Part shown: in pieces, positions 28,685-43,298 of the stretch
How the letters are laid out: every line of letters starts with the position of its first letter
How positions within the stretch are numbered: position 1 is the first letter of the stretch
Assembly (NCBI GenBank): GCA_039707465.1
Contig: CM077648.1
Location: 71,691,619 to 71,755,618, forward strand
Reading direction: 5' to 3'
Origin: Rhabdophis nuchalis
Lineage: Eukaryota > Chordata > Lepidosauria > Squamata > Natricidae
DNA length: 64,000 bases
Translations under genes and position numbers: made by a program
Notes under the pieces: generated by a model
Told to the model about the DNA's origin: nothing
Database searches by the model: none
The model's input: the letters and a program-made list of their open reading frames with translations, nothing else

Positions 28685-30260
28685 ATTTCCAGATGAGGAG
28701 GAAGGGGCTGACATCGCGATGATACAACATGCAATCTTGGAACTCCAAGATTGCTGTTGATATCTCTGCTGCTGGACGACCCCTTTGGACCTAAACCGTC
28801 CTGTAGAGACAGCGATAGAGAAGGGCATGTCCTGTTGATCTCAGGGACATCACAAAGTCCCTGATTGATCCAGGAGAAGTTCTTTTTTCCGGCAACAGAG
28901 AAGCAGCCATTAAGCTGCAGAAGGTTGGGACAGCCCCTGAATGGAAGAAAAGCAGGAGAGAGAGTTTGTAGAAATGGTGAGATACATTTTACTATTAGAG
29001 AACACCCAAAAAGACTTAGAGTAAAATTAAAATTGAACACAGAAGAGAGTAAGTGGCGAATTAAGCCTGAATTAAACTTAGTGTATCTTTTTTTAATTGT
29101 TTTTTTATGGATGGAATTTTTACAAATGCCTCTTATTTTTTAAATTGGACTGGTTTCTTTTTTCTTTCTTCTATTTTTCTTCTTTTTTCATATTTGTGGA
29201 TTATGAATTTCTTTCTTTTTTCAATGCTCAGCTGGATTGTTTCTTTTTAAGAACATTTTTTTCTTAAATTTGGAATTTAAAGAGAGAGGTAAAAGCAGAG
29301 GAAAAAGAAGTAACACTGCCACCTAGAGGCTGGAGGCTTGGAAACATTGTTTTTTTCTTATTCCCTTTGAGCATCTGACTTATATCTTATACTTCAAGGC
29401 TCCTGATTTTGTTTATTGAAAGGGATAGTGGGAAGAGTACGGATTGTTTATGCAGGTGCTCTTTTGGAGTACTATCAATAGCTGGACTGAAGCGAAAGCC
29501 TTGACTTGAAAGATTATAGTGAACTTGCTTGAAACTTAACAAAAAAGCCTTGGATGTTTTAGTGGCTATGTTTATAATCTGGAAGAATGGTGCAACATGT
29601 AGAAGAAAAAGAACTAACATTGCAAATGATTATGCTAGAAATTCAAAAAGTACAAATAAGTACAGAGAACATTGAAAAGAGAATGGAGAATATAGAACAA
29701 ATAACAGAAAAAAATATGGGGAAGAGTTGAGAATATTTACAAAACGCTGATGAAATTTGAGGACAGAGTTCAAAAAATTGAAGAAAAATATGAACAAAGT
29801 GATAAGAAAATTGTTGATATTGACAGCAAATCGAGCATGGTTGGAAACGACAGGAGTGGAATGTTTAAAGGAGAGATCAATGAACTGGAACTCTATCTCA
29901 AACCTCACAACATGGAAGAAGAAAAGAGAGAAAATCTGGCAGAAACAATGAGAGAAATTCTGGCAGAAGCATCGGTGATAACTAAAGGCAAGCTGATGGA
30001 AGGAACAGATGGAGGGTTTTGAGTCTTTACAAGATATGCAATGAACAAGGTGCCAAAAAAGTCCACATAAGATTTATCAAGAAAACAATTAGAATACAAA
30101 TACTACAAATGGCAAGAGATATAGGGTTGCACTACTACTGGAAGGACACAGGATGATGAAATGAAATGATACAATAAAAATTAAGTTAAACTTAGTCAAA
30201 TTTAGAGCATTATGTATAAAATAAAGCAATAATTGTTATAGTCAAATAAATGATTAATAA
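28685..30260 (+). mobile_element. L1-type remnant: 5' UTR, ORF1 and 3' tail, different lineage
   Basis: A 5' UTR-like region is followed by a coiled-coil ORF1 remnant (29587-30155) and an AT-rich 3' region ending near AATAATGATAATAATGC (30252). The last 100 bp resemble 47390-47485. No ORF2 lies between, so this may be another ORF1-only element or an internally deleted L1. Boundaries are approximate and no target duplication was found. Confidence 0.5.
29587..30155 (+). pseudogene. L1 ORF1-like remnant
   Basis: It starts ATG at 29587 (MVQHVEEKELTLQMIMLEIQ) with a Glu/Lys/Ile-rich coiled-coil. A stop lies at about 29728 and a frame change before MKFEDRVQKIEEKYEQ (29750). It ends with a basic segment resembling the L1 C-terminal domain (FIKKTIRIQILQMARDIG). 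Several stops and frameshifts are present. The identification rests on the coiled-coil and this C-terminal motif. Confidence 0.5.
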
Positions 30261-30272
30261 TGATAATAATGC

Positions 30273-30283
<11 letters not shown>

Positions 30284-30310
<27 letters not shown>
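30284..30310 (+). repeat. (GT)n microsatellite
   Basis: A pure GT run directly abuts TTAGTTTTATGAG, the edge sequence of a retrozyme unit. Confidence 0.9.
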
Positions 30311-30312
<2 letters not shown>

Positions 30313-30543
30313 GTTTTATGAGCTGATCAATAAATTAAATTAGAGAGAGACCTAACACACTAAAACTAACACACATATCTAAAATATTATACAACGTAAT
30401 TCTTGGCTTGCTGTCTAGATGATCTCTGGTGATGAGTCGAAAGGCAGGAAAGGAAACAGTATGTCTCCTCCCTTTAATTGTTGTGAAACAATTACCTATA
30501 CTAATATACCCTGTCTAAAGCTGATGTAATAGGGGAACTGGTT

Positions 30544-30598
30544 TGGCTTAAGTGTGAGGTTCCTCGCCTTACATGCAACATAGCCCCGGTTCGAATCC
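30544..30598 (+). promoter_or_regulatory. tRNA-like Pol III internal promoter (A and B boxes), subfamily II
   Basis: A box TGGCTTAAGTG (30544-30554) and B box GGTTCGAATCC (30588-30598) match the tRNA promoter consensus with normal spacing. The cloverleaf is degenerate, so this is a tRNA-derived head and not a tRNA gene. It ends 14 nt before the ribozyme. Confidence 0.75.
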
Positions 30599-30611
30599 CA
30601 GTAAGGGGTAT

Positions 30612-30658
30612 GGCCAGCTGATGAGAGCTAATAAGCTCGAAATAGATCTATCCTGGTC
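30612..30658 (+). ncRNA. Hammerhead ribozyme a (type I)
   Basis: Helix I GGCCAG/CTGGTC, core CTGATGA, helix II GAGCT/AGCTC with AATA loop, core GAAA, helix III TAG/CTA with AT loop, cleavage site after ATC at 30652. All conserved core bases are present. Helices II and III differ from copy c by paired changes. Confidence 0.88.
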
Positions 30659-30866
30659 TCTTCTAATTTAATTTATTGATCAGCTCATAAAACTAACACA
30701 CATATCTAAAATATTATACAACGTAATTCTTGGCTTGCTGTTTGGATGGTCTCTAGCGATGAGCCGATGAGCAGTAAGGGAAACAGTATGTCTCCTCCCT
30801 TTAATTGGGGCCTAATAATAACAGGTTGTTGTGAAACAATTATATATAAAAACATATATATATGTT

Positions 30867-31020
30867 AGATTTTTTAAGGGCTGAAAATAAAGAGACCAGG
30901 ATGGATCCATTTCAGGCTTATTAGCCTTCTTCAGCTGGCCATACTCCTTCTACTGGGATTTGAACCAGGGCTTTCCAGCACTTGATTAGATTACTGCTGT
31001 GTGACATTTTTTAGATATAT
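30867..31020 (-). repeat. Retrozyme subfamily I unit, inverted, partial
   Basis: A minus-strand piece contains the unit edge (TTAGATTTTTTAAGGGCTGA in plus reading), a hammerhead (30894-30940) and the B box (complement at 30956-30967). It is truncated before the A box. Confidence 0.75.
30894..30940 (-). ncRNA. Hammerhead ribozyme b (minus strand)
   Basis: The structure matches copy c: core CTGAAGA and GAAA, helix II AGGCT/AGCCT, helix III TGG/CCA, helix I GGCCAG/CTGGTC. It has 47 nt and a complete core. Confidence 0.85.
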
Positions 31021-31057
31021 GTTAGATTTTTTAAGGGCTGAAAATAAAGAGACCAGA

Positions 31058-31112
31058 TAGCTCAAGGCATAGAGAGCTTGCCTCAAGTGCTGGAAAGCCC
31101 TGGTTCAAATCC
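31058..31112 (+). promoter_or_regulatory. tRNA-like Pol III promoter, unit c
   Basis: A box TAGCTCAAGGC (31058-31068) and B box GGTTCAAATCC (31102-31112). They repeat at 31395/31439, 31732/31776 and, in another unit, 36503/36548. A T4 stretch in TTTATTTTCAG lies about 10 nt past the ribozyme and might end short Pol III transcripts. Confidence 0.72.
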
Positions 31113-31127
31113 CAGTAGAAGGAGTAT

Positions 31128-31174
31128 GGCCAGCTGAAGAAGGCTAATAAGCCTGAAATGGATCCATCCTGGTC
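31128..31174 (+). ncRNA. Hammerhead ribozyme c
   Basis: Core CTGAAGA and GAAA, helix II AGGCT/AGCCT (AATA loop), helix III TGG/CCA, cleavage after ATC at 31168, helix I GGCCAG/CTGGTC. Complete. Confidence 0.88.
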
Positions 31175-31464
31175 TCTTTATTTTCAGCCCTTAAAAAATC
31201 TAACATATATCTAAAAAATGTCACACAGCAGTAATCTAATTTGGTTCTCTGTCTGGATGACTCTGGGTTGAGTCGAAGGGCAGAGAGGGAAGACATTAAG
31301 TCTCCTCCCCTTAAAGGGACCCTGAACAGGAGCTGTGAGAAGTATTCTTCATTTAAGAGTCCTGTAAATTGGCTGATATATCAGGGATACCAGATAGCTC
31401 AAGGCATAGAGAGCTTGCCTCAAGTGCTGGAAAGCCCTGGTTCAAATCCCAGTAGAAGGAGTAT

Positions 31465-31511
31465 GGCCAGCTGAAGAAGGCTAATAAGCCTGAAATGGAT
31501 CTATCCTGGTC
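31465..31511 (+). ncRNA. Hammerhead ribozyme d
   Basis: As copy c, with helix III TGG/CTA, where one G-C pair becomes G-U. Cleavage is predicted after 31505. Confidence 0.86.
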
Positions 31512-31801
31512 TCTTTATTTTCAGCCCTTAAAAAATCTAACATATATCTAAAAAATGTCACACAGCAGTAATCTAATTTGGTTCTCTGTCTGGATGACTC
31601 TGGGTTGAGTCGAAGGGCAGAGAGGGAAGACATTAAGTCTCCTCCCCTTAAAGGGACTCTGAACAGGAGCTGTGAGAAGTATTCTTCATTTAAGAGTCCT
31701 GTAAATTGGCTGATATATCAGGGATACCAGATAGCTCAAGGCATAGAGAGCTTGCCTCAAGTGCTGGAAAGCCCTGGTTCAAATCCCAGTAGAAGGAGTA
31801 T

Positions 31802-31848
31802 GGCCAGCTGAAGAAGGCTAATAAGCCTGAAATGGATCCATCCTGGTC
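31802..31848 (+). ncRNA. Hammerhead ribozyme e
   Basis: Same sequence as copy c. Cleavage is predicted after 31842. Confidence 0.87.
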
Positions 31849-32079
31849 TCTTTATTTTCAGCCCTTAAAAAATCTAACATATATCTAAAAAATGTCACAC
31901 AGCAGTAATCTAATTTGGTTCTCTGTCTGGATGACTCTGGGTTGAGTCGAAGGGCAGAGAGGGAAGACATTAAGTCTCCTCCCCTTAAAGGGACCCTGAA
32001 CAGGAGCTGTGAGAAGTATTCTTCATATATATATATATGGCCATACTTCCCTACAGGGATTTGAACTGTAGGGAAGTAT

Positions 32080-32126
32080 GGCCAGCTGACGAGGGCTAAG
32101 GAGCCCGAAATGGATCCATCCTGGTC
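32080..32126 (+). ncRNA. Hammerhead ribozyme f
   Basis: Core CTGACGA (the variable position 7 is C here) and GAAA. Helix II GGGCT/AGCCC with AAGG loop is another paired change. Helix III TGG/CCA and helix I are conserved. It belongs to a truncated unit (about 32040-32300) with a short inverted repeat (CCATACTTCCCTACAG) before it in place of the A box. Confidence 0.86.
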
Positions 32127-32306
32127 TCTTAATTAATTATTACTAATCATCCCTTAAAAGAAATTTAACACATATCTAAAAAGACAGCAGCAATTTAATA
32201 GGTCTCTGTCTGGATGGTCTCTAGGTTGAGTCGAAGGACAGAGAAGGATGACAAGTTTGTCTCCTCCCTTAATAGGCCTAACAGGAAGCTGTAACAATAT
32301 ATCCAC

Positions 32307-32309
<3 letters not shown>

Positions 32310-32395
<86 letters not shown>
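32310..32395. repeat. (AT)n microsatellite
   Basis: A pure AT run lies between a retrozyme unit and the 3' end of PLE-A. Confidence 0.95.
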
Positions 32396-32396
<1 letters not shown>

Positions 32397-32480
32397 TTCG
32401 TAGGTTTTCACGGGTATAGGTATGTAGATTTTGGTTTATTCGGGTCTTTTCCCGTGTAAAATTAAAGGTGTTTTTGCAAC

Positions 32481-32511
32481 GTTTCGATGGGATCACCCCC
32501 ATCATCATCAG
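32481..32511 (-). ncRNA. Hammerhead-like core in PLE-A 3' UTR
   Basis: On the minus strand: CTGATGA, T, helix II GATGGG/CCCATC around a 6-nt loop, then GAAAC. All core bases are present in exactly 31 nt. Helix III would be the palindrome ACGT directly after GAA, possibly only stable in a dimer, and helix I is not clear. Confidence 0.62.
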
Positions 32512-33350
32512 GCTTTGGCTTCTGCCTTTTGCAAATGAACTGCATTTGAAATGGCAGTTTTTCTGTAAGTGGAGGTGGGAGGGGTTGGAATGTTGGCTCT
32601 GCTACTTTTAAACCGATTGGTTGGCTGATTTGCCACATCCTGATTGGTAGCTGGAGTTTGTTGAGAGTGATTGATGATGGTGTCAGTGTTTGTGGCCGGG
32701 ACTTGTTTAGTGGCTGGGACTCGTTTAGTGGCCAGGGTTTGTTTAGTGGCCGGGACTCGTTTAGTGGCCAGAGCTGGTTTCCAGATGTCTGGCAGGCGGG
32801 AGGCATCATCGCGTCTGTTCATATTTTGGGGATGTTTTTCTATTTCAATAGCTTCCATAATCATTCTCCTGTTGGAGTGTTCAGTCCTGGAGAGCAATTT
32901 GGTTTTTTCAAAGTCAATTTGATGACCTGTTGCTTGGAAGTGCTGGAAGAGGGAGGAAGTATTTACTTGTCTTTTAACAGAATTCTTATGCTCTGAGATA
33001 CGTGCACTAATTCTCCTATTAGTTTGTCCAATGTATGTGGACGAGCAGACTTTGCATGGTATTTCATAGACTCCTTGGTTTTCTAGCTGGATTTTGTCTT
33101 TGGGGTTCCTTAAAATGTTGGCAATTTTTTGGTTAGTGTCGAAGGATGTCTTTATATTGTGTTTGTGGAGAATTTTGCTGATTTTATCAGTGGTACCTTT
33201 AATATAGGGGAGGAGAGCGATGCCATTGTCTTGTTCTGTGTTTTGGATCTTGGGAGGTGTCTGCTTTTGGATTAGTTTGGTGATTGTGTTTCTTTGGAAA
33301 CCATTAGAGATTAATATCTTTGTGAGGGTTTGTAATTCATTTTTCAGGTG
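32508..33350 (-). pseudogene. PLE-A GIY-YIG endonuclease domain (partial gene)
   Basis: The frame encodes LLPYIKGTTDKISKIL, then VYEIPCKVC and TYIGQTNRR (the GIY-YIG strand pair), ARISEHKNSV (catalytic Arg and conserved His), TGHQIDF and RTEH. It ends in a repetitive Thr/Pro/Asn-rich tail to the stop at 32508. PLE proteins pair this nuclease with a telomerase-like reverse transcriptase; that part is missing here. Confidence 0.8.
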
Positions 33351-33648
33351 GTAGGGACTCGTTTGTCAGTGAGGGCAGGTTTCCAAATGGCTGGTAGGCG
33401 GGAGGTATCATCTTGTTTATTCATGCTGTGTGGCCGCTTTTCTATCTCAATAGCTTCTCTGATTATTCTGTTGTTATAGTGTTCAATTTTGGCAATAGTT
33501 CTGGTCTTTTTAAAGTCTATATCATGTCCTGTGGCTTTGAAGTGTTGGACCAGGGAAGAAGTTGGTTCCTCCTTTCTGACTGAGTTTTTGTGTTCTTCAA
33601 TGCGTGCCTTTATTCTTCTGTTGGTTTGTCCGATGTATGTGGTGGGTG

Positions 33649-34316
33649 AAATTGAACACTATAACAACAGAATAATCAGAGAAGCTATTGAGATAGAAAA
33701 GCGGCCACACAGCATGAATAAACGAGATGATACCTCCCGCCTACCAGCCATTTGGAAACCTGCCCTCACTGACAAACGAGTCCCTAACACAAAGAATGAT
33801 ACCAGACCCACACTCACGAAAACCACACAGGATGTCACTATCACACATCCACGCAAAAAGCAAACCCAAACCCACACCGATGATGACCACAAATCAGAAG
33901 CCCGACCACAAACCAGAAGCCAGACCAAAGCTGCATTATTAGCCACTTTAAACCCCTCCAATCCATACATGAAGCAAACTGATGCCCACCACAGAGATGT
34001 GGTACGACCACAAACGCGAAGCCAAACAACAGCAATGCAGCTCACCAGGTCAAATTCCTCTGCTACTCAGACTAACACAAGCACAACCAGGCCCCCACCC
34101 AAACAGAACACGCCCCCATCCAATCAGAGCACAGCCAAACTCCCATCCAATCAGAGCACAGCCAAACCCCCTACCAATCAGAACACACCTCCACCCAATC
34201 AGAATGCAGCCAAGCTCTCACCCAATCAGGTCACACCCCCACTGGCAGTTAAAAAGAGGAACCGGCTGAGATCTCACATTGCTCCTGGAAGCACCAAGCC
34301 GGAAGCACCAGCCTGA
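33649..34316 (+). pseudogene. PLE-B C-terminal coding part
   Basis: It encodes EIEHYNNRIIREAIEIEKRP, then DDTSRLPAIWKPAL, then a low-complexity tail of Asn/Gln/Pro/Thr repeats (NQSTAKLPSNQ and variants) ending at TKPEAPA, stop 34314-34316. It corresponds to the region after the GIY-YIG core in PLE-A and PLE-D. The apparent start at 33489 is a chance extension over the fold-back junction. Confidence 0.78.
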
Positions 34317-34344
34317 AGATGATGAATGAGATTTCATCGAAACG
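34314..34344 (+). ncRNA. Hammerhead-like core in PLE-B 3' UTR
   Basis: CTGAAGA, T, helix II GATGAA/TTCATC with TGAGAT loop, GAAAC. It starts at the stop codon of the PLE frame (the TGA is inside CTGAAGA). CTTCC downstream could pair with GGAAG upstream as an outer helix I. Confidence 0.6.
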
Positions 34345-34489
34345 TCGTGAAGATACTTCCAATTCTACGCGGGAGAAAACCCGAACAACCAAAGACCTAC
34401 ATACAAACACCCGCGAAAACCTCAGAAAACATATATATATATATATATGTGTTAGTTTTATGAGCTGATATATAAATTAAATTAGAAGG

Positions 34490-34536
34490 GACCAGGATAG
34501 ATCTATTTCGAGCTTATTAGCTCTCATCAGCTGGCC
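34490..34536 (-). ncRNA. Hammerhead ribozyme g (minus strand)
   Basis: Identical in structure to copy a: CTGATGA, helix II GAGCT/AGCTC, GAAA, helix III TAG/CTA, helix I GGCCAG/CTGGTC. Confidence 0.86.
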
Positions 34537-34837
34537 ATACCCCTTAGTGGGATTCGAACCGGGGCTATGTTGCATGCAAGGCGAAGAACCTCACACTTAA
34601 GCCAAACCAGTTCCCCTATTACATCAGCTTAGACAGGGTATATTAGTATAGGTAATTGTTTCACCACAACCTGTTATTATTAGGCCCCAATTAAAGGGAG
34701 GAGACATACTGTTTCCCTTACTGCCCATCGGCTCATCGCTAGAGACCATCCAAACAGCAAGCCAAGAATTACGTTGTATAATATTTTAGATATGTGTGTT
34801 AGTTTTATGAGCTGATCAATAAATTAAATTAGAAGAG

Positions 34838-34885
34838 ACCAGGATAGATAAGCTCGAAATAGATCTATCCTGGTCTCTTCTAATT
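34838..34885. pseudogene. Broken hammerhead h at a fold-back
   Basis: GACCAGGATAGAT (minus orientation) is joined to AAGCTCGAAATAGATC and then TATCCTGGTC (plus orientation). The 5' half of the plus ribozyme (helix I strand, CTGATGA) is absent. The strand switch falls in the helix III/cleavage region. Confidence 0.7.
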
Positions 34886-34916
34886 TAATTTATTGATCAG
34901 CTCATAAAACTAACAC

Positions 34917-35013
34917 ACTATAACAACAGAATAATCAGAGAAGCTATTGAGATAGAAAAGCGGCCACACAGCATGAATAAACGAGATGATACCTCCCGCC
35001 TACCAGCCATTTG
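34917..35013 (+). mobile_element. PLE fragment fused inside a retrozyme unit
   Basis: About 97 bp encode the PLE segment YNNRIIREAIEIEKRP to SRLPAIW, matching 33659-33755. It is joined on the left to retrozyme edge AACTAACACAC and on the right to retrozyme body TCTCTAGCGATGAGCCGATG. It replaces the short retrozyme segment seen at 30700-30748. Confidence 0.85.
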
Positions 35014-35105
35014 GTCTCTAGCGATGAGCCGATGGGCAGTAAGGGAAACGGTATGTCTCCTCCCTTTAATTGGGGCCTAATAATAACAGATTGTTGTGAA
35101 ACAAT

Positions 35106-35212
<107 letters not shown>

Positions 35213-35246
35213 GATTTTTAAGGGATGATTTAATAATTAATTAAGA

Positions 35247-35292
35247 GACCAGGATAGATCCATTTCGGGCTTTTTAGCCTCTTCAGCTGGCC
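35247..35292 (-). ncRNA. Hammerhead ribozyme i (minus strand, 1-nt shorter helix II)
   Basis: CTGAAGA, helix II GGCT/AGCC with one unpaired C before GAAA, helix III TGG/CTA, helix I intact. A one-base deletion probably weakens it. Confidence 0.75.
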
Positions 35293-35543
35293 ATACTTCT
35301 TCTACTGGGATTTGAACCAGCACTTTCCAGCACATGAGGCAAGCCTCTCTATGCCTTGAGCTAACCAGTTTCCCTGATTACATCATCCTTTTACAGGACT
35401 CTTATTGATTAGAGAATATTTTTTTACAGCTCCTGTAAAAAAGGCATAGAGAGGCTTGCCTCATGTGCTGGAAAGTGTTTTTTAGGTATGTGTTAGATTT
35501 TTATGCTGGAAAGTGCCGGTTCAAATCCCAGTAGATGAAGTAT

Positions 35544-35590
35544 GGCCAGCTGAAGAAGGCTAAAAAGCCTGAAATAGATCTATCCTGGTC
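35544..35590 (+). ncRNA. Hammerhead ribozyme j
   Basis: CTGAAGA, helix II AGGCT/AGCCT with AAAA loop, GAAA, helix III TAG/CTA, helix I intact. Confidence 0.86.
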
Positions 35591-35606
35591 TCTTAATTAT
35601 TAAATC

Positions 35607-35731
<125 letters not shown>

Positions 35732-35761
35732 GTTAGATTTTTTAAGGGCTGAAAATAAAGA

Positions 35762-35808
35762 GACCAGGATGGATCCATTTCAGGCTTATTAGCCTTCTTC
35801 AGCTGGCC
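35762..35808 (-). ncRNA. Hammerhead ribozyme k (minus strand)
   Basis: Same structure as copy c. It belongs to an inverted unit that keeps its B box (complement near 35824-35834) and A box (near 35868-35878). Confidence 0.86.
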
Positions 35809-36502
35809 ATACTCCTTCTACTGGGATTTGAACCAGGGCTTTCCAGCATTTGAGGCAAGCTCTCTATGCCTTGAGCTATCTGGTATCCCTGATATATCAG
35901 CCAATTTACAGGATTCTTAAATGAAGAATAATTATCACAGCTCCTGTGAAGAGGTCCCTTTAAGGGGAGGAGACTCAACGTCATCCCTCTTGCCTCATCC
36001 ATCCTGGTCTCTTTATTTTCAGCCCTTAAAAAATCTAACACATATCTAAAAAAATGTCACACAGCAGTAATCTAATTTGGTTCTCTGTCTGGATGACTCT
36101 GGGTTGAGTCGAAGGGCAGAGAGGGATGATGTTGAGTCTCCTCCCCTTAAAGGGACCTCTTCACAGGAGCTGTGATAATTATTCTTCATATATATATATA
36201 TATATGAGGCAAGCCTTTCTATGCCTTGAGCTATCCAGTATCCCTGATACATCAGCCAATTTACAGGACTCTTATTATTAATGAGAGAATTAAAAAAAAT
36301 CTAACACATATCTAAAAAAAATTTCACAGAGCAGCAAACTAATTGGTTCTCTGACTGGATGATCTCTAGGTTGAGTCAAAGGGCAGAGAGGGATGACGTT
36401 ATAGTTTCCTCCCTTAAAGGGACCTTGAACAGGAGCTGTGAATATATTGTCTCATTAATAATAAGAGTCCTGTAAATTGGCTGATGTATCAGGGATACCG
36501 GA

Positions 36503-36558
36503 TAGCTCAAGGCATAGAAAGGCTTGCCTCATATGCTGGAAAGCACCGGTTCAAATCC
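36503..36558 (+). promoter_or_regulatory. tRNA-like Pol III promoter, unit l
   Basis: A box TAGCTCAAGGC (36503-36513) and B box GGTTCAAATCC (36548-36558) precede hammerhead l by 15 nt. Confidence 0.72.
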
Positions 36559-36573
36559 CAGTAGAAGGAGTAT

Positions 36574-36620
36574 GGCCAGCTGAAGAAGGCTAGCAAGCCT
36601 GAAATGGATCCATCCTGGTC
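36574..36620 (+). ncRNA. Hammerhead ribozyme l
   Basis: CTGAAGA, helix II AGGCT/AGCCT with AGCA loop, GAAA, helix III TGG/CCA, helix I GGCCAG/CTGGTC. Complete. Confidence 0.87.
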
Positions 36621-36835
36621 TCTTTATTTTCAGCCCTTAAAAAAAATCTAACACATATCTAAAAAAAAATTCACACAGCAGCAAACTAATTGGTTCTCTG
36701 TCTGGATGATCTCTAGGTTGAGTCGAAGGGCAGAGAGGGATGACGTTATAGTCTCCTCCCTTAAAGGGACCTTGAACAGGAGCTGTGAATATATTCTCTC
36801 ATTAATATATATACAGCTCTCATTAATATATATAT

Positions 36836-37491
36836 ATATTAATGGGCGTATATTAAAGGGCGTATGGTCGGTGGTGGAGAAAATTCCTCTCCTCCTAGCT
36901 GACCCTTTCCCGTGGCTGGCGGCGATTTATGGCCATCGCGAACCGCGCGGGGGGGGGGGCTCGCGAATGAAAGAGGATATTGAGGTGTGTGAGGAGGTGG
37001 CAAATTCCACACACTGAAATCCCTCTAAGGCACCGCCGCGGGAAGAGGGCGACGTGGGGTCGCCCCAAAGCTGAGACTGATCCTTTTGGCTGGGGAAGCT
37101 GCTGTCACAACGCAATTGCTCTCTAGATGGACTGATCGGAGGTGATCCTCTTAACTTTCTTTTGCCTATTTGCTGTTGGAAGATCGGTCGTGGGGAAGTA
37201 GAGACAGCTGTCGGATTGGAGTGAGTGGCCATTTTTACTTGTTGCTGGGCTAGCTGTCTTTTCGACTGCCATACCGGAGGTGTTTGATCTGTGACAGAAT
37301 TCTCTTAGTTAATCTACTTCCCTCTCCCTACTGCTAGGAGTTTTAATACTCTGGACCTCCCCTATAACTGGATTGTAGTGGAGTAGATTGGATTGTCTGC
37401 TGAATTTCGCTGGATTTGAACTAAGAAACTTAAACATACGGGGGTGATGACTTAGTATTTAAACGTCTCTTCCGGCTGGGCAGTAAAGGCT
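36836..37491 (+). promoter_or_regulatory. L1-C 5' UTR
   Basis: A GC-richer non-coding region with a GCGGGGGGGGGG run near 36948 precedes ORF1. An L1 internal promoter is expected by analogy; no defined site was recognised. Confidence 0.5.
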
Positions 37492-42749: not shown

Positions 42750-43046
42750 CGCCAAACAACAGTAACGCAGCTCACCAGCTCTAATCCCTCTGCAACTCAG
42801 ACTAACACAAGCACAACCAGGCCCCCACCCAAACAGAAAACGCCCCCATCCAATCAGAGCACAGCCAAACTCCCATCCAATCAGAGCACAACCAAGCCCC
42901 CTACCAATCAGAATACACCTCCACTCAATCAGAATGCAGCCAAGCTCCCACCCAATCAGCTCACACCCCCACTGGCAGTTAAAAAGAGGAACCGGCTGAG
43001 ATCTCACATTGCTCCTGGAAACACCAAGCCGGAAGCACCAGCCTGA
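42750..43046 (+). pseudogene. PLE-C C-terminal coding tail
   Basis: Asn/Gln/Pro/Thr repeats ending RSHIAPGNTKPEAPA are nearly identical to the end of PLE-B. No nuclease or reverse transcriptase part is present. Confidence 0.72.
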
Positions 43047-43073
43047 AGATGATGAATGAGACTTCATCGAAAC
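43043..43073 (+). ncRNA. Hammerhead-like core, PLE-C right arm
   Basis: CTGAAGA, T, helix II GATGAA/TTCATC with TGAGAC loop, GAAAC. 31 nt. Confidence 0.6.
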
Positions 43074-43128
43074 ATCCTGAAGATACTTCCAATTCTACGC
43101 GGGAGAAAACCCGAACAACCAAAGACCT

Positions 43129-43245
43129 ACATATATATATATATATATATATATGAAGTGGATATATTGTATATATATTGTATATATATATATATTGTAT
43201 ATATATTGTATATATATATATATTGTATATATAAACAAATATATA
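43129..43245. repeat. AT-rich simple repeat
   Basis: (AT)n with interspersed TGTATATATAT units, about 115 bp, at the end of PLE-C. Confidence 0.9.
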
Positions 43246-43298
43246 TATTTGTTTTCGTAGATTTTCACGGGTGTAGGTATGCTGGCATAGCTGGCTTC
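43246..43298 (+). mobile_element. PLE terminal segment, left of Gypsy-2
   Basis: GTTTTCGTAGATTTTCACGG and then GGTATGCTGGCATAGC match the PLE 3' edge at 32394-32430 and 47499-47530. The inverse of its inner part (GAAGCCAGCTATGCCAGCAT) lies right of Gypsy-2 at 47158-47177. Confidence 0.7.

Follow-up and report, generated by a model that had tools for sequence, protein, structure and literature searches.

The 64-kb window (the whole stretch of Rhabdophis nuchalis DNA analyzed here) contains a plus-strand tandem array at bp 31052-32026, in which Tandem Repeats Finder recognizes 2.9 copies of a 337 bp period with 99% matches; the array runs from unit position 221 to unit position 184. It carries three complete type I hammerhead ribozyme motifs, spaced 337 bp apart and with all core bases present, at 31128-31174, 31465-31511, and 31802-31848 (plus strand). 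An earlier note on this DNA had described these three ribozymes and placed their cuts after 31168, 31505, and 31842; a strict motif script (CUGANGA, helix II, GAAA, helix III, NUH, and a helix I of at least 4 bp) confirms the motifs and predicts the same cleavage positions. The interval reported in that note closes with a fourth, diverged complete hammerhead (32080-32126, plus strand; helix II GGGC/GCCC, predicted cut after 32120). In the entire window the script finds ten hammerheads, seven on the plus strand and three on the minus strand, whereas 30 shuffles of the same DNA that preserve dinucleotides give none. A single change in the middle copy of the array results in a G-U pair in its helix III. 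For helix III the best reading is 2 bp with a GAUC loop, which together form an 8-nt palindrome; the script's own version of it, 3 bp with a 2-nt loop, was rejected as physically unrealistic. A GUAU bulge is visible by eye on the 5′ side above helix I.

The array belongs to a 6.5-kb nest in which retrozyme and Penelope-like element (PLE) insertions are combined; the nest occupies 30304-36788 and includes two retrozyme subfamilies, A and B (see below). At the left, a plus-strand B-type copy (30361-30842; hammerhead 30612-30658) faces a minus-strand B fragment (30304-30352) head to head. The array itself is A-type and is head to head with the minus arm of an A insertion (30858-31056) that contains a hammerhead at 30894-30940 and one internal jump. 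Farther right, an (AT)n tract (32310-32393, by Tandem Repeats Finder) marks the outer end of a minus-strand PLE arm (32393-33650) with a putative GIY-YIG endonuclease frame at 32508-33365 (285 aa, stop to stop). A second, plus-strand PLE arm (33645-34431), which belongs to another subfamily, is head to head with the first, runs into (AT)n at its outer end, and includes a minimal Penelope-type hammerhead core at 34313-34346 (plus strand, recognized by eye). These are followed by a minus-strand B-type copy (34443-34849; hammerhead 34490-34536, by strict motif and annotation), by a plus-strand B/PLE/B chimera (34848-35113, made up of 34848-34918, 34915-35014, and 35012-35113 with joins that overlap by 4 and 3 nt) that terminates in (TA)n, and by more A-type arms of either orientation, set between runs of (AT)n, (TG)n, and (AC)n (35206-36788; hammerheads at 35544-35590 and 36574-36620 on the plus strand and 35762-35808 on the minus strand). 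Elsewhere in the window, 42810-43248 is probably another Penelope-like copy beside AT repeats, with its tandem units as the sole evidence.

At gathering thresholds Rfam gives no match in any part of the window, and the above-threshold covariance-model hit that the earlier note had proposed as a check was not obtained with Rfam. The best Rfam match for the snake retrozyme is Hammerhead_HH9 (RF02275; cut-off 52 bits), against which the first array copy scores 24.0 bits (E 2.3e-4, 101 bases) and the diverged fourth hammerhead 25.2 bits. A sensitive scan of 30200-36900 gives its best hammerhead match, also to HH9, at 30601 in the left B copy (33.5 bits, likewise below the cut-off), and the three array copies are absent from the 48 below-threshold matches of that scan. 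Sensitive mode also yields miRNA-like matches below the cut-off, the strongest of them on a long palindrome (34794-34918) that consists of two facing B fragments. HH9 differs from the retrozymes in that it has one above-cut-off copy in the genome (C1:378970325-378970406, 88.7 bits, the sole one of two matches), whereas the retrozymes score below the cut-off and are repeats; we take HH9 to be one of the conserved intronic hammerheads of amniotes. A covariance model built from the family itself recognizes 11 window copies at more than 70 bits and two weak ones, three of the window copies being among the 65 sequences used to build it.

Those 65 distinct sequences, which also served for the covariation analysis, derive from 218 hammerhead segments with at most 12 mismatches to the core. 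Helix II is AGGC/GCCU in 125 segments, with UGGAUCCA in helix III, and GAGC/GCUC in 51, with UAGAUCUA in helix III; GGGC/GCCC (9 segments) and GGAC/GUCC (6) are rarer. Helix I has exchanged C-G for U-A in 12 of the 65 sequences and G-C for A-U in five, and compensatory changes between subfamilies are present in all three helices. Six of 13 helix pairs have changed on both sides, and the cells with such a change number 99 (36.5 in shuffles); paired cells amount to 94.0% (87.5 in shuffles), and the covariation score is 0.316 (0.189 in shuffles, at most 0.111 for slid partners). Two of the five measures do not beat the shuffles, namely the number of two-sided pairs (6; 56 of 500 shuffles as high) and that of further pair types (17; 313 of 500). 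The independent covariation events are few, at about four master types; the helix covariation indicates that the ribozyme fold has been kept. A folding model assigns helix I a probability of 0 in the full-length linear unit of both A and B, and in a 170-nt context 0 for A and ∼0.97 for B; the hammerhead, when enforced in a circle, has a cost of 5.2 kcal/mol for A and 4.7 kcal/mol for B, and thus the predicted folds do not favor the hammerhead in the circular form.

Upstream of the ribozyme, A and B units both carry a tRNA-like A box followed by a B box, 55 nt end to end; in the array this segment lies at 31058-31111 (plus strand) in the first unit and recurs at 31395-31448 and 31732-31785. Such a pair is absent from all 20,000 shuffles of each unit. 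The A-type unit satisfies only a relaxed A box and includes one TTTT, a possible Pol III stop that counts against transcription by this polymerase; the lack of TTTT in the B-type unit has no statistical significance, as 1,065 of 3,000 shuffles are likewise free of it. A tRNA fold is not recognized, as a wider Rfam scan with E values allowed up to 10 gives no tRNA families and ARAGORN finds no tRNA. From the boxes we infer that the unit may be transcribed by Pol III. A hairpin-like region at 31250-31285, with its equivalent in each unit (unit positions ∼82-117), is identical between A and B at 27 of 38 positions, and the adjoining block at unit positions 118-147 at 25 of 30; these two parts are a possible candidate for an enzyme-binding structure.

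A 35-place hammerhead-core pattern that requires neither helix I nor pairing has 9,197 exact matches in the 1.92-Gb genome (4,496 forward and 4,701 reverse), and its reversed control has none. Searches with the 337-bp unit and with a 281-bp B segment gave at least 207 matches (from 40 scored of 1,989 candidates) and at least 129 matches (from 39 scored of 1,832), respectively. The family is thus dispersed genome-wide and is more than one local satellite. Its two main subfamilies are A (337 bp, GC 0.44) and B (348 bp, GC 0.41), which are 67% identical overall, 35/41 in the ribozyme, and 53/82 in the tRNA-like part when the B unit is a composite of two window pieces. The natural 348-bp B unit was taken from locus L048; four further loci (L049-L052) have arms of 331-1,017 bp with a rounded identity to it of 99-100%, alongside older fragments, and this high identity indicates recent B activity. 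A complete type I hammerhead core, low-GC tandem units of 150-450 bp, and a dispersed, multi-copy distribution are all present here, and the interpretation of the array in the earlier note, as a retrozyme of the metazoan non-LTR type in a squamate genome, is supported at the level of sequence. The same genome has a nuclear copy of mitochondrial COX1 (C1:213330195-213331534) with two stops in the 384-codon part translated; two protein clusters, those headed by the pit vipers Protobothrops and Bothriechis, match it at 95% identity, and the next, Rena, at 83% (among the best 120 of 7,999). Taken with the closest Penelope proteins and the HH9 ribozyme, these matches suggest that the host is an advanced snake.

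The resident PLE encodes a reverse transcriptase (RVT_1, 59.5 bits, cut-off 29.6) and a possible GIY-YIG domain (21.1 bits, E 3.9e-4, just below the cut-off of 22.6), and its closest proteins are from Vipera (82% identity) and Podarcis (81%). It is recent; of the 139 copies scored, most have 98-100% identity to the 285-aa endonuclease query, and open frames extend up to 925 aa. Penelope copies at C6:21094028-21101725 (spacing 2,680-2,681 bp) and C6:63697118-63707876 (2,405-2,406 bp) are in tandem and strand-switching, resembling the plan of the retrozyme arrays. Several loci combine the two kinds of element. Locus L024 is one insertion flanked by AT-rich DNA; its left side consists of an A array of eight units (2,692 bp) plus a short A piece, and its right side of a 239-bp PLE piece that has the usual end. 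The left outer end of this insertion is unit position 67, outside the usual start sites. PLE and A are joined head to head at L030, as are A and B at L058; retrozyme and PLE lie on one strand at L015 and L033, and the window has its B-PLE-B chimera. Among the matches listed (the first 100 per pattern), 14 of 44 PLE hammerheads have a retrozyme hammerhead no more than 1 kb away (0.19 expected at random). Nesting in shared targets contributes to this proximity, and shared targets and nesting could also occur if another enzyme had the same target preference.

Insertion anatomy was annotated at 39 A loci (the best matches of the unit search, young and long), five B loci, 13 of the first 100 listed places (11 distinct), and the window, and 16 PLE and 10 retrozyme places were added later. 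Signature counts refer to A, B, and PLE arms of at least 90% identity and at least 40 bp in the set that precedes the last 26 places. Young insertions lie mostly in dinucleotide repeats and have two head-to-head arms with their 3′ ends outward. A dinucleotide run lies no more than 22 nt from the outer 3′ end in 57/83 A, 19/26 B, and 43/59 PLE arms; for the arms' own 5′ ends the counts are 7/83, 4/27, and 8/58, and the background is 425 of the 56,400 positions of the window that lie beyond the nest. Over all loci, 3′ ends at dinucleotide runs number 58/85 (A), 28/42 (B), and 71/93 (PLE). Head-to-head arms amount to 56/84 for A, 16/27 for B, and 33/60 for PLE, and tail-to-tail arms to 4, 2, and 5. 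The retrozyme signature is weaker in a sample from C1 (11 distinct loci, any identity), where A is head to head in 1/6, B in 2/17, and PLE in 9/14, with tail-to-tail arms in 4/17 (B) and 4/14 (PLE). It is also weaker in old copies; below 90% identity, 3′ ends lie at dinucleotide runs in 8/28 A, 22/43 B, and 7/25 PLE copies, and 2/28, 12/44, and 6/25 are head to head. Nothing clear in the way of target duplications was seen in 14 arm pairs outside microsatellites, and within microsatellite targets they are unreadable.

The outer 3′ ends cluster at two internal sites, unit positions ∼30-46 and 180-187 in A and 50-53 and 190-196 in B, in both cases mostly followed by TA, CA, or TG runs; those of the PLE cluster at 759 and 787 in the PLEa piece and at 1230 and 1258 in PLEb. 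The two start sites are thus ∼142-146 nt apart in the retrozymes and 28 nt apart in the resident PLE. When arms of at least 85% identity are paired, the two arms of an insertion mostly use different sites: 27 of 31 classifiable retrozyme pairs are mixed (of 53; 22 unclassifiable; permutation p 2.5e-5), as are 25 of 26 classifiable PLE pairs (of 34; p 5e-6), the last PLE places having been chosen for close opposite hammerheads, a choice that does not select for either end. These counts indicate that the retrozymes follow the PLE rule at their own two sites.

The 5′ ends bear on the template. More than one unit is present in 45 of 88 A arms. At 90% identity or more, A 5′ ends form no cluster (scan p 0.30), with 3/84 no farther than 5 nt from the cleavage site (expectation 2.7), and B 5′ ends are even (scan p 0.70), with 2/27 at the cleavage site. 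Such even ends without enrichment argue against cleaved linear monomers as the main template; they fit circles, or uncut multimers with random stops, and could also reflect an enzyme that falls off a long linear multimer. In PLEa, 20 of 40 5′ ends fall within one 12-nt window; this count is preferred to that from all loci (43/76 in 633-646), because the latter includes places chosen as close opposite pairs. B copies below 90% identity have a 5′ cluster at unit positions 278-289 (10/44), whose distance upstream of the ribozyme cut is similar to that between the PLE 5′ cluster and the PLE's own cut. Locus L043 (1949-6464) has a 1,011-bp (three-unit) higher-order period that includes one altered unit, and L042 has alternating units; these periods could reflect trimeric and dimeric templates. 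Within-array variants were considered as proof of a single circle and dropped, since many of the "fixed" ones are subfamily differences from the reference unit; they lend mild support only.

The anatomy of the young copies suggests, with a probability of roughly 0.7, that the retrozyme is mobilized by the resident Penelope-like enzyme from self-cleaved RNA circles, with both ends of the break priming. Hammerheads would cut long transcripts, and monomers, or sometimes dimers or trimers, would close into circles. The Penelope protein would open an AT- or CA-rich dinucleotide repeat, and both broken DNA ends would prime, one at each of the two internal RNA start sites. Reverse transcription would then run round the circular template, the number of turns varying, and joining of the two cDNAs in the middle would give a head-to-head pair of tandem arrays with 3′ ends outward. 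A more detailed version has about an even chance of being correct; in it a pair of Penelope enzymes would perform rolling-circle reverse transcription with a different start site at each end and two arrays per event, the Penelope "tail" would be a trace of the two-site rule, and retrozymes would be parasites with circular RNA. The in vitro behavior of the Anolis PLE enzyme, whose start site does not differ between strands (PMC11167929), counts against one site per end. The anatomy indicates one enzyme and gives its start sites, so the idea is testable in vitro with the published Anolis protein.

Movement of the retrozyme by the PLE protein from long, linear, uncut multimers, with no need of the ribozyme for insertion, would account for 5′ ends without a pile-up at the cleavage site, and catalytic mutants of the Anolis PLE hammerhead do insert in vitro, where unprocessed RNA is the main substrate (PMC11167929). 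Yet the PLE, whose template is presumably linear, has a 5′ cluster and young retrozymes have none, and the covariation of the helices indicates a kept ribozyme fold; we regard this route as unlikely. Head-to-head arms could instead arise when a single cDNA primes itself or folds back, rather than from priming at both DNA ends, as was proposed for rotifer Penelope on account of palindromes at the junction (PMC3846280). The arms' 5′ ends nevertheless look independent (at most 20 nt apart in 6 of 39 retrozyme pairs, 4.7 expected), the two outer ends are mostly at different start sites, arms within one insertion can derive from different RNAs (L024, L030, and L058), and cutting and extension of both strands are documented for a PLE protein (PMC11167929), which leaves fold-back distinctly improbable.

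The two remaining explanations do without a PLE enzyme and are in our view very improbable. If the units were a DNA-level satellite spread by unequal exchange and homogenization, the hammerhead being a relic, their tandem organization would be expected, as would the partly shared variants (at least one in 8 of 28 loci) and the periods of L042 and L043. Such a process fits poorly with thousands of dispersed matches that have two defined 3′ end sites, head-to-head arms, and dinucleotide-repeat targets, with helices that covary between subfamilies, and with an excess of private over partly shared variants (98 versus 30 in the 28 loci; another 51 two-unit differences are uninformative). The A and B boxes would also suit a tRNA-derived SINE that is mobilized by a LINE and carries a hammerhead by chance, and SINE-derived satellites are known in squamates (PMC10702118). 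Against such an origin stand 3′ ends at two internal sites, mostly followed by dinucleotide runs, the head-to-head plan, the hybrids with the PLE, and the failure of Rfam and ARAGORN to recognize a tRNA. The view of the retrozyme as a passenger of the Penelope-like enzyme has in its favor the shared target, head-to-head arms, and one start site per arm that young copies display.

A literature search that most subscription papers lay beyond found no hammerhead retrozyme repeat described for a squamate or other amniote in the text available to it; a hammerhead in an Anolis Penelope element (PMC11167929) and intronic hammerheads of amniotes (PMC6155905) are in print. The present array places recently active hammerhead repeats in an amniote, and elements of this kind are regarded as the source from which the conserved intronic hammerheads of amniotes were domesticated (PMC6155905). 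What appears to be new is the insertion anatomy, which points to Penelope as the mover of retrozymes.

Metazoan non-LTR retrozymes are described as ∼300-bp tandem repeats of low GC with type I hammerheads (PMC7229834). Among them, newt satellite 2 and the 331/353-bp retrozymes of axolotl share with the snake elements a type I hammerhead, tandem units of ∼330-350 bp, two subfamilies, a helix III that is weak and closed by a short loop (a palindrome in one of the axolotl types), low GC, and PLEs in the genome; the snake retrozyme differs in its amniote host, in the A/B-box pair upstream of the ribozyme, and in an insertion signature that names a likely helper enzyme. The SM-alpha repeat of Schistosoma (PMC8490949 and PMC4918200) is similar in being a 335-bp SINE-like repeat that contains both a tRNA segment and a type I hammerhead, and differs in its flatworm host. 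Among Penelope-like elements, Poseidon of Anolis has an AT-rich target, two reverse transcription start sites, and a hammerhead near them, and the Anolis enzyme uses two start sites that span the tail and extends both strands (PMC11167929). Penelope of the rotifer Adineta also has head-to-head copies and a hammerhead near its start sites, and a 31-bp tail is optionally present on one of its two inverted copies (PMC3846280), which the one-site-per-arm pattern of the resident PLE resembles. Unlike these elements, the snake retrozyme has a unit (337/348 bp) too short for an enzyme frame, and its young copies have no fixed 5′ end.
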